Source: Armatimonadota bacterium (lineage in GTDB: Bacteria > Armatimonadota > UBA5829 > JAUSEB01). From it: a stretch of 55,688 nucleotides of DNA. The position numbers and the translations under genes are program-made. The notes under the pieces were generated by a model that had not been told where the DNA came from, made no database searches, and was given only the letters and a program-made list of their open reading frames with translations. Every line of letters starts with the position of its first letter. The stretch's first letter is position 1. The stretch covers positions 1-55,688 of the forward strand of contig JAUSGG010000133.1 in NCBI GenBank assembly GCA_030649165.1, written 5' to 3'. Shown one piece after another: positions 41,972 to 46,101 of this stretch.

Positions 41972-42028
41972 GAGTTCAGTTTCGCGGGAACGTCATTCCG
42001 ACCGAAGTGGAGGAATCTGCTTTTTCCG
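41972..42028 (+). repeat. 57-bp dispersed repeat (direct copy)
   Basis: Reverse-complement partner of 37129-37185, differing at two positions. Confidence 0.75.
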
Positions 42029-42060
42029 ATTGCGTCAGGCCCAAAAGTAGATGCCCCGTT

Positions 42061-43215: not shown

Positions 43216-43678
43216 AAGTCGTTAGTCAGACTGGCCCGTGCCATGAACGCAGATGCACGAGAAACCCAAGGGGCGGGCTTCAGGGATATGGGCTACGTCG
43301 TGCCCGTTGGGCAGTGCTGCTACGCTGTTCCTACGGAAGAGTCGCCAATCCGGCTTTTCCTCGTCCGTCGCATCCTCTGTCGCGCTTTGTATATCTCCAT
43401 CCTAGTCGGGACTGGACTGCCGAGGAAAAATGCGCGTTTTGTGAGCTCCTAGCCGTTGTCCTTGAGCAGAAATACGGGGCACCGCCCAACGAGCTATGGT
43501 TTGTGGACCTCTCCACTGGCGACATCACGACCAATTACTCCGGCAGAATCACCGTGCGGAAGCGCTGTGAGCGCGCAGCACGAATGATCCGCCGTCTGCT
43601 GGATAACCCAGAAGGCAGGAATGCGGCGTAGGCTCGCCCAGTGCAGATGATAGTGCTGGATGAAAGGAGGTGCTCACC
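43216..43678. other. Region with at most one weak gene
   Basis: Apart from the uncertain reading frame ending at 43631, it holds only the ribosome binding site AAAGGAGGT (43663-43671) of the next gene. Confidence 0.5.
43314..43631 (+). CDS. Hypothetical protein, start uncertain, possibly frameshifted
   Basis: The C-terminal 80 residues (DWTAEEKCAFCELLAVVLEQ, then GAPPNELWFVDLSTGDITTN and a basic helix ending RRLLDNPEGRNAA) look like a real folded protein. No good ribosome binding site precedes a start in this frame. A second frame from 43243 opens with a plausible N-terminus (MGYVVPVGQCCYAVPTEE) and breaks at 43452, so a frameshift near 43360-43390 may have split one gene. No family is recognised. 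Confidence 0.35.
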   Translation: MLLRCSYGRVANPAFPRPSHPLSRFVYLHPSRDWTAEEKCAFCELLAVVLEQKYGAPPNELWFVDLSTGDITTNYSGRITVRKRCERAARMIRRLLDNPEGRNAA

Positions 43679-43852
43679 GTGGCCAAAAACCCTCCGCCAG
43701 GCGATGGTCATCGCAAAGGTGCGGTGAAGGGCCGGTCTCAGGTGTTGAACCCGAAGACCGAACGATGGACTAAGAGAGACACAGGCAGCGGCCAGTTTAT
43801 GGATGGGAAGTCAGACAAGCAGCCATTCAAGGGCGTACGGAAAGAGAAGTGA
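43679..43852 (+). CDS. Small basic GDGHRxGAVKxRSQ-motif protein
   Basis: This 57-residue, strongly basic protein has the conserved pattern NPPPGDGHRKGAVKGRSQV, NPKT-xx-W-x-KRDTGxGxFMDxK and PFKGVRKE. Proteins with this motif set are, from memory, widespread small hypothetical proteins; no function is known to me. GTG at 43679 follows AAAGGAGGT by 7 nt, a near-ideal start, and gives the family N-terminus (MAKNPPP). It lies directly beside the HD/YwgA-like pair but on the other strand. Confidence 0.8.
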   Translation: MAKNPPPGDGHRKGAVKGRSQVLNPKTERWTKRDTGSGQFMDGKSDKQPFKGVRKEK

Positions 43853-43906
43853 TATGGCTCAGTCAGGGACATCGTTAGGCCGATGCCCCTGATGCTGGTG
43901 TTTTCC

Positions 43907-43928
43907 GCATTTCAATGCCGAAACGCCA
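43907..43928 (+). repeat. Flanking direct repeat A of the HD/YwgA-like module
   Basis: GCATTTCAATGCCGAAACGC; 17 of 22 positions match repeat B at 45939-45960. It ends 16 bp before the end of the YwgA-like gene. Confidence 0.4.
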
Positions 43929-43944
43929 GTTCCGAGTGCGATGC

Positions 43945-44499
43945 TTAAGCGGTGATAACCTGGTTCGTCCTCAGGTATTCAAGCGCCTCAGTGATCTCAT
44001 TCCTGCTGAACTTGCCCGGTTTGAGGGCGTGTACCGTGTCAATGACGTCGCTGTCAGCCACGGGTTTCCCGCGCGCGGCGAAGTAAGAGTACGCATAGTG
44101 CGTGGTAGCGAACAATTCCAGGCTGGTGGCCGACCGCCTGCCAAAGACGTTGATCACGGCGTCAATCTCAGCCTTGTGCTTGTCAAGGAAGTCTTGGGCA
44201 TGCTTCCTGACGTCTTCGTTCTGCGGCCCGGGTGAGATGCTGTATCCACCGTTGACGATGTATTGCACCTTCACGGCGCCAAGGACATCTGCGTAATCCA
44301 GATCGCCCATTAGCGCAGCAGAGAACGGACCGTAAGTATAGAACTCGAAACGGTATCCGAGGGATACGCCCTTCCATTCCTGAAGGAAGTAGACCATTTT
44401 CTGGAGCGCGGTTTTGCCGAACATCTCCACATTGTCGGCAATGTAGGCAATCGCACCGTACCGCTCCCACGGGATCCGTATCTCGATCTTAGTCGACAT
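43945..44499 (-). CDS. YwgA-like protein (Panacea/DUF4065-like fold suspected)
   Basis: This 184-residue cytosolic protein resembles Bacillus YwgA. GKTALQKMVYFLQEWKGVSL and FEFYTYGPFSAALMGDLDY match its core, and the LQKMVYFLQ pattern recalls the Panacea antitoxin domain, whose members neutralise varied toxins. It overlaps the HD-phosphohydrolase gene by 11 bases, with AAGGAAGGAG before its ATG, so the two are co-translated. The ywgA gene is also next to an HD phosphohydrolase gene (ywfO) in B. subtilis, which supports a conserved functional pair. Whether it regulates the HD enzyme is inference. Confidence 0.72.
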   Translation of the reverse strand: MSTKIEIRIPWERYGAIAYIADNVEMFGKTALQKMVYFLQEWKGVSLGYRFEFYTYGPFSAALMGDLDYADVLGAVKVQYIVNGGYSISPGPQNEDVRKHAQDFLDKHKAEIDAVINVFGRRSATSLELFATTHYAYSYFAARGKPVADSDVIDTVHALKPGKFSRNEITEALEYLRTNQVITA

Positions 44500-45907
44500 G
44501 TGTCTCCTTCCTTTCCGTTACCTTCGCCACTATTCCAAGCGCCTCCTCCTTATCCGCATTGTCCACGTACAGCCTTTGTTGGTCTATACTGCGGAGGCCT
44601 TTCACCACGGGGCATATGTCAGACAACGGCTTGTTTGAGCCATCTTCCATTTCTACTACTATCTCTTCTTCCTTTTTGAACTTGTACCACGACTTGGCAG
44701 CCGAGTCCGCCATCCGCACGAGGCTACCGAGTTTGTCCGATATCCGGTTGAACACTTCGATGTCCTCCTGCTTAGGGGTTTCCACTGTTTCGTAGATCCT
44801 CCTGTAGTGGTTTCTCTCTCTGATTCTTCTTGCATCGTCGCTGTGTTTGTTACCCGCGACGATGCCCGCGACACGCCAGTCGTCCCACTTGAGGAACTTG
44901 CTCAGGTTCCTGCGGCTGTCCGGCGGCGGGAAGCCGTACGGCAGGAGTGTGCCGAGCACCTGTTCCAAGTGGTAATCGTAGGCTCGCCTGGTCTTGTGAA
45001 AGTAGACCTGCGTGAACATCGCATACCTAGCAAGAATGAGCTCCTCCGCGGCGTGCCACCCACCCTCTTCGACCCCAAGTCTCAGCCCGAGGCCGCTTTT
45101 TGACCGGGCGACGCCAGCGGTTCCTTCTTCAAGTTCGGTGTCCTCCACGACCGCCAGGGTGTGCAGGAGTCGGTCGATGTCGAACCGGCCGTATTGCACG
45201 CCGCAGTGATACGAGTCCCGAAGGAGATAGTCCATTCGGTCAACGTCCATCTGGCTGGTCAGCAGATCCCGCCAGAACAAGTGGCTGCCCATCTGGGGAT
45301 CCCCATCAAGGATCCCTGCGACATCGTCGGAAGTTATCTCGGCATTTGTTTTGAGACTCCGGTTGCCGTCGATCACGTCACTGAAGAAGATGCGGATCAC
45401 GGCAGCGGAATACTGCTCGTGAGAGTACCTGGCTTGCGCGTCGCTCGTGCCAGCCTTCGACTTCTGAGCCGCAATCGGCATCAGTGACTCTGCCGCATGA
45501 GAGAACGGCCCGTGTCCTACGTCATGAAGAAGCGCCGCCAGGCGCACGATCCATCGGGCTCGCTCAATCCCAAGATCGTTGTAGTGCAGGACGTTCTTCA
45601 GCCTATTGACGTACTTCTGGTTGCGCGTGATCAAGTCGAACGCTTTCCCGGCCAGGTGCATCACCCCAAGTGAGTGCTCGAATCTGGTATGGGCAGCACC
45701 TGGGTACACCATATCGGTGAACGCGAGTTGCCTGATGCGGCGCAGCCGCTGGAAGTACTCGTGGTTGATAATGTCGCGTTCCCAGTCGGTGATAGTTATG
45801 AACCCGTGTATCGGGTCACGGATTTCGTAATACTTGTCGGGATTCAGACCAGTGTCCTCCCACGGCTCAAGGCGTTCCTCTCCGAACACCCGTTTGCAGT
45901 ATACCAT
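44489..45907 (-). CDS. SAMHD1/YwfO-like HD phosphohydrolase
   Basis: This 472-residue HD-superfamily protein is of the dNTP triphosphohydrolase/SAMHD1 type. Metal ligands are H78 (RFEHSLGVMHLA), H128-D129 (LLHDVGHGPFSHA) and D221 (SQMDVDRMDYLLRDSYHCG); H132 and H137 fit catalytic positions. Relatives hydrolyse (d)NTPs, and some act in phage defence or nucleotide homeostasis. The C-terminal third (from about 290) is helical and charged. It is translated with a YwgA-like partner. No strong ribosome binding site precedes the ATG at 45907; AAAGGG is 12 nt away. Confidence 0.88.
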   Translation of the reverse strand: MVYCKRVFGEERLEPWEDTGLNPDKYYEIRDPIHGFITITDWERDIINHEYFQRLRRIRQLAFTDMVYPGAAHTRFEHSLGVMHLAGKAFDLITRNQKYVNRLKNVLHYNDLGIERARWIVRLAALLHDVGHGPFSHAAESLMPIAAQKSKAGTSDAQARYSHEQYSAAVIRIFFSDVIDGNRSLKTNAEITSDDVAGILDGDPQMGSHLFWRDLLTSQMDVDRMDYLLRDSYHCGVQYGRFDIDRLLHTLAVVEDTELEEGTAGVARSKSGLGLRLGVEEGGWHAAEELILARYAMFTQVYFHKTRRAYDYHLEQVLGTLLPYGFPPPDSRRNLSKFLKWDDWRVAGIVAGNKHSDDARRIRERNHYRRIYETVETPKQEDIEVFNRISDKLGSLVRMADSAAKSWYKFKKEEEIVVEMEDGSNKPLSDICPVVKGLRSIDQQRLYVDNADKEEALGIVAKVTERKETHVD

Positions 45908-45938
45908 ACCTTGTCAATACCCTTTGCTAAGCACTTCG

Positions 45939-45960
45939 GCATTTCGACGCCGAAACCCTG
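45939..45960 (+). repeat. Flanking direct repeat B of the HD/YwgA-like module
   Basis: GCATTTCGACGCCGAAACCC, 31 bp upstream of the HD gene start. Together with repeat A it brackets exactly the two-gene unit. Confidence 0.4.
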
Positions 45961-46101
45961 CCACCAGCCCTCCCGCGAAGAGAGGCGCCGCGTCCCTTAC
46001 AGGAACATCCATCCTCCATGCCGAATGGTTCACTATCCCAGCCATTTATGTTGGCCCAGACCATGAACGCAAACATAGAACAAATCCCAGGCGACAAAAA
46101 C

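Follow-up and report, generated by a model that had tools for sequence, protein, structure and literature searches.

A conserved HD phosphohydrolase–YwgA gene pair in an Armatimonadota genome, with a possible role in phage defence

Introduction

The window, a stretch of 55,688 nt from an Armatimonadota bacterium, holds two overlapping genes, one for an HD phosphohydrolase and one for a small protein, and we ask here what the two do together and how they came to lie where they do. An earlier note, made from the sequence alone, had seen in them a plausible toxin/antidote or defence unit, inserted as a module between two short repeats. The features on which our analysis rests are collected in Table 1.

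Table 1. Positions and strands of features at the locus, in window coordinates
Feature	Position	Strand	Remarks
Segment non-homologous to the sister-genus locus	43216..46080		In the sister genus these flanks enclose DHDPS-like and DegT aminotransferase genes
Left 40-nt degenerate direct repeat	43232..43271	+	Resembles 5' end of DUF6785 gene; left edge of segment
Small basic gene (60 aa), PDC-S38 / phrog_12550	43670..43852	+	Convergent with the pair; PADLOC candidate
Imperfect palindrome (hairpin), left repeat of the earlier note	43903..43924		Between convergent ends of S38 and small gene; fold z -3.6
YwgA / DarG-C-terminal-domain-like gene (184 aa)	43945..44499	-	Proposed antidote or regulator; 11-nt overlap with HD gene
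11-nt coding overlap of HD and small genes	44489..44499	-	AAGGAG before second ATG; putative translational coupling
HD-phosphohydrolase gene (472 aa)	44489..45907	-	SAMHD1/YwfO-like predicted dNTP triphosphohydrolase; proposed effector
Imperfect palindrome, right repeat of the earlier note	45935..45956		Upstream of HD gene; fold z -2.6
Right 40-nt degenerate direct repeat	46052..46091	+	DUF6785 gene start; right edge of segment

Results

A predicted dNTPase and its overlapping partner

Both reading frames are complete and uninterrupted on the minus strand, where the earlier note had placed them (45907..44489 for the HD gene and 44499..43945 for the small gene), and the 11-base overlap described there is present. 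A Shine-Dalgarno-like AAGGAG lies 6 nt upstream of the small-gene ATG, within the 3' end of the HD gene, and this motif together with the overlap suggests that the two genes are translationally coupled. The HD protein matches PF01966 (1.2e-8, 35.7 bits against a Pfam cut-off of 22) and PF19276, HD_assoc_2 (3.5e-9, 36.9 bits against 23.1), and its sequence finds in the PDB the entry 2hek (1.8e-40), which we take to be an Aquifex protein, followed by 2o6i/EF1143 (6e-33) and SAMHD1 (1e-21). Alignment to SAMHD1 and EF1143 shows the catalytic HD motif and the QRLR, RFxHSLG, HDxGHGPFSH, DRMDYLLRD and QVYxHK signatures, and R75, H78, H128, D129, H132, H137, D223, Y227, D231, Y302 and H304 are invariant across the aligned relatives. 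With family domains above their cut-offs and all catalytic positions retained, the earlier assignment to the SAMHD1 type holds, and the protein is a predicted dNTP triphosphohydrolase of SAMHD1/YwfO type that should degrade DNA building blocks.

The small protein matches the PADLOC DarG model at 8.8e-12, exclusively over the last ~150 model positions (178-328 of 329), and the NCBIfam DarG model at 1.9e-8, with a score against full-length NF048014 of 34 bits, under the cut-off of 250. It lacks the N-terminal macrodomain of DarG, and the gene that adjoins its own is the HD gene, not DarT. A PDB search by sequence alone returned chance matches, whereas a Foldseek search with an AlphaFold model built from 44 sequences (pLDDT 97) identifies the DarTG structure 7yk3 (E 4e-5, TM 0.63-0.69); the two M. 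tuberculosis DarTG chains of this entry, of DarG-domain size, are the sole PDB fold matches below 1e-3. By sequence and predicted fold, then, the small protein is related to the C-terminal domain of DarG, a domain that suffices by itself for DarT sequestration (PMC7003065) and achieves it through mimicry of single-stranded DNA (PMC11481870). The likeness to YwgA pointed out in the earlier note is borne out (98.7% in an hhalign comparison of the small-protein profile with Priestia YwgA). The Panacea kinship also proposed there, with an HMM comparison as its check, is not: the match to PF13274 (E 0.0075, 17.6 bits) falls below the gathering cut-off of 25.7, and Panacea structures are absent from the best Foldseek matches. 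The literature that we searched contains no description of a function for YwgA, nor one of the HD-YwgA pair.

The two genes are inherited as a pair

We searched profiles of both proteins against 291 genomes of the host phylum. Of the 33 strong small-protein homologues, 29 are encoded immediately 3' of an HD gene and in the same orientation; the other four include two at contig ends next to defence genes and one DarG-type macrodomain protein. Five further phylum genomes (L240-L244), forming one clade of their own, have the small gene first and the HD gene after it. A nucleotide-pattern search of the genome contigs for the small gene returned no relatives, the sequences being too divergent. At one locus (L044:8006-9323) the HD gene is split into two ORFs, by a frameshift or an assembly error, next to an intact small gene.

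The pairing extends well outside the phylum. Among 80 HD loci of diverse bacteria and archaea, 13 also have the small partner, mostly with overlapping reading frames, and paired loci occur in Methanothrix, Clostridium, Desulfacinum, Planctomycetota, Spirochaetaceae, Accumulibacter and others. Priestia megaterium carries the pair in a chromosomal-type gene order that resembles the ywfO-ywgA region, so named in B. subtilis, and its YwgA is recovered by the small-protein profile. In Listeria and Paenibacillus the HD gene stands without the small partner, and the HD proteins of Klebsiella plasmids and prophages, which lie outside the paired set, have no partner gene either. Distances among HD proteins and among small proteins correlate with r = 0.78 over 47 pairs, a value reached in 0 of 5000 permutations (maximum 0.17), although the correlation owes part of its strength to shared descent. 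In being co-translated and staying paired in distant genomes, the HD and small genes resemble Type II toxin-antitoxin systems. The two proteins are a conserved, co-inherited pair, and the pair is a widespread, horizontally moving two-gene module of bacteria and archaea that spans many phyla.

Relatives of the pair lie inside defence operons and on viral contigs

In two DISARM operons the pair is embedded among the drm genes, as drmD-drmMI-HD-small-x-drmA-drmB (G054, L041) and as drmD-drmMI-(AbiGi-like, antisense)-HD-small-drmA-drmB-drmC, where adjacent genes overlap by a few nucleotides (G159, L206), and in a third genome a small gene directly precedes drmA-drmB at a contig end (G032, L245). 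These three loci, with the pair or the contig-end small gene just 5' of drmA, belong to three different families of the phylum. The pair also occupies a mod-res type restriction-modification operon in the order DNA methylase-HD-small-ResIII helicase-TnsA-like nuclease (G204, L214), the second half of which recurs in another genome (G211, L248), and it lies directly downstream of HsdM in a Type I system (G173, L218). Desulfacinum has an Hma operon with the order HmaA-HD-small-HmaB-HmaC, and a planctomycete has HmaA-HD-small (L125, L129). Three of the five reverse-order genomes have defence neighbours as well, namely HsdR-HsdS-HsdM (G126, L242), a divergent drmA (G177, L243) and HmaC (G046, L240). 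A tree of the HD proteins places that of the window in a clade with support 99 together with a Methanothrix protein and the proteins of G108 (L212), G204 and G173, of which two lie inside and one near restriction systems; its nearest relative in this clade is 52% identical. Three IMG/VR contigs carry the pair, one immediately upstream of the small and large terminase subunits (L278), one together with an integrase (L280) and one with a CI-type repressor (L281).

This context, with relatives in DISARM, Hma and Type I and Type III restriction operons, lends the defence idea of the earlier note independent support. A PADLOC neighbour comparison with 22 unpaired HD loci of the phylum finds methyltransferases near a few of them too, so the defence association may belong to these HD enzymes generally, and we argue the link between pair and defence from operon architecture, not from counts. 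Most paired loci in the phylum have no defence neighbours, and the window copy itself lies outside any DISARM, Hma or restriction operon, on a contig where its neighbours, S38 excepted, are housekeeping genes.

S38, the small basic gene that the earlier note had placed beside the pair, is real: its product matches the PADLOC candidate PDC-S38 at 2.1e-31 and phrog_12550 at 4.2e-19, members of a short family that is frequent on plasmids. Two others of the 61 relatives carry PDC-S38, both beside restriction-modification genes. One copy (L262:5749-5916, a family of ~60 aa) sits inside a Type I restriction-modification operon with an RmrA gene, and the other (L261:4747-4923) near a Type IIG-like methyltransferase.

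An acquired segment flanked by degenerate repeats

The earlier note had proposed a comparison with relatives that lack the pair, and the sister genus (G001) is such a relative. Its locus, pieced together from two contigs that overlap by 55 nt, reads deacetylase-epimerase-DHDPS-like-DegT aminotransferase-DUF6785, with the flanks in the same order as in the window and with the HD gene, the small gene and S38 all absent; three further relatives of the order likewise have an epimerase followed by DHDPS. Because the sister genus lacks the pair and has DHDPS-like and aminotransferase genes in its place, the segment must have been acquired. S38 lies within it. The GC content of the segment drops to 0.53-0.60, where the flanks mostly have 0.60-0.65. 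The closest DegT protein elsewhere in the window genome is just 47% identical, from which we infer that the DegT gene was probably lost. At the edges of the segment, the 40-nt repeats match at 28 of 40 positions, a level that none of 400 shuffles reached, and a 22-nt core of the repeat has two genomic matches only. The left copy probably also explains the start of the possibly broken gene of the earlier note (43243-43631), a frame that returned no family matches. Elsewhere in the window, 80 nt at 41973-42052 are 92.5% identical to a sister-genus copy, where coding genes reach ~70%, and represent a conserved dispersed repeat.

The 22-nt repeats that the earlier note had taken as brackets of the inserted module exist, at 17 of 22 matching positions (43907-43928 and 45939-45960) and at 19 of 22 once the frame is shifted (43903-43924 and 45935-45956), 21 nt beyond the small-gene stop and 28 nt before the HD gene begins. 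None of 1000 dinucleotide shuffles reached 19/22 (maximum 17), although among 600 pairs of chunks drawn at random from the window, 10 scored at least 18/22. What does not stand is their reading as marks of insertion. With up to 3 mismatches the palindrome TTTCGGCATTTNAATGCCGAAA occurs at ~7 sites in the 5.5-Mb genome, its reversed control at none, and the sister locus, where the earlier note had looked to a single remaining repeat, offers best matches of 16-17 of 22 and no single copy; we therefore reject the 22-mers as target-site duplications. The dispersed palindrome takes the form TTTCGGCATT-N2-AATGCCGAAA in the host genome, with copies at 43902-43923 and 45934-45955 of the window and also at L003, L273 and L275-L277. 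It is possibly a REP-like or terminator element, and the left copy is a probable bidirectional terminator between the convergent gene ends. The 40-nt repeat is the likelier scar of acquisition.

Discussion

We favour the view that the pair is a dNTPase effector restrained by a DarG-like protein and serves in phage defence, and we put its probability at roughly 0.6. The HD enzyme would be an effector that depletes the dNTP pool and whose toxicity is conditional, and the small protein would bind it and hold it inactive, in the way that DarT is bound and occluded by the C-terminal domain of DarG. The enzyme would be freed when a phage infects, or when a partner restriction system is inhibited, and would then starve phage replication of dNTPs. 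Restraint by the DarG-like protein and release on infection are proposed by analogy, with Clover as the precedent, in which a dNTPase toxic by itself is kept in check by the product of its neighbour in the operon (PMC12265719). The broader proposal, to which we give somewhat less than even odds, is that HD-YwgA constitutes an undescribed and very widespread form of two-protein dNTPase immunity, with a direct antidote of DarG-C-terminal type, that is carried by phages and has repeatedly been recruited into DISARM, Hma and Type I/III restriction systems as a built-in fail-safe.

The strongest competing reading is housekeeping control of the dNTP pool, in which the HD enzyme sanitises nucleotides, the small protein regulates it or serves as its allosteric subunit instead of being an antitoxin, and the operon simply happens to be mobile. 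We consider this unlikely, though clearly ahead of the remaining alternatives. It draws on the chromosomal Priestia pair in typical Bacillus gene order, on the solitary HD genes of Listeria and Paenibacillus, on the scarcity of defence neighbours at paired loci, and on the proposal that YwfO is a house-cleaning pyrophosphohydrolase (PMC4993169). The Priestia order, together with the HD genes that lack a partner in Listeria and Paenibacillus, indicates that the HD enzyme is not always a toxin in need of an antidote. A housekeeping regulator sits poorly, however, with a patchy and mobile distribution, with pairs on viral contigs and with repeated siting between drmM and drmA, mod and res, or HmaA and HmaB.

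That same embedding in DNA-modification systems would suit an accessory role in which the HD enzyme lowers dNTPs when the restriction or DISARM machinery of the host cuts DNA and the DarG-like protein is a sensor of single-stranded DNA, not an antitoxin; since the DarG domain mimics single-stranded DNA, the roles of partner and sensor may overlap. Many copies are solitary, the window copy among them, and we regard this alternative as improbable. More improbable still is the independent mobile cassette of the earlier note, with the 22-mers as target-site duplications: their identity exceeds that of shuffles and the segment is missing from the sister genus, but they are imperfect palindromes found at several genomic sites, no single copy marks the sister site, and they leave out S38, which is also new at the locus.

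Should the restrained-dNTPase reading be true, immune enzymes that deplete dNTPs would be joined with antitoxin domains of DarG type in one portable unit, and the role of YwgA proteins beside YwfO-type enzymes would be explained. PrrC-type nucleases are a back-up in some Type I loci, and restriction-based systems would, on the same reading, often have a dNTP-depleting back-up.

Among known systems, ywfO-ywgA of Bacillus has the same gene order and the same two families as the window pair, but in Bacilli it is fixed on the chromosome, whereas the pair described here is mobile, patchy and often found within defence operons. The single-gene anti-phage dGTPase (NF041026, PADLOC dGTPase) shares the HD superfamily with the window enzyme, with weak matches (15.9 bits against a cut-off of 400); it acts as a single gene, whereas the window HD protein is paired with a second protein. 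Panacea/SocA (PF13274, PMC8832971) offers the idea of a promiscuous antitoxin and a weak likeness over the same N-terminal stretch, with the small protein below threshold. Clover, like the unit proposed here, consists of an HD dNTPase effector, the dGTPase CloA, which is toxic when unrestrained, and a restraining partner, the nucleotidyltransferase CloB (PMC12265719). CloB makes an inhibitory nucleotide, whereas the window partner, in which we find no nucleotidyltransferase match, is DarG-like and would be expected to act by direct binding. DarTG (7yk3) shares with the small protein the fold and sequence of its DarT-sequestering C-terminal domain, but the window unit has neither macrodomain nor DarT, and the partner in their place is an HD phosphohydrolase.
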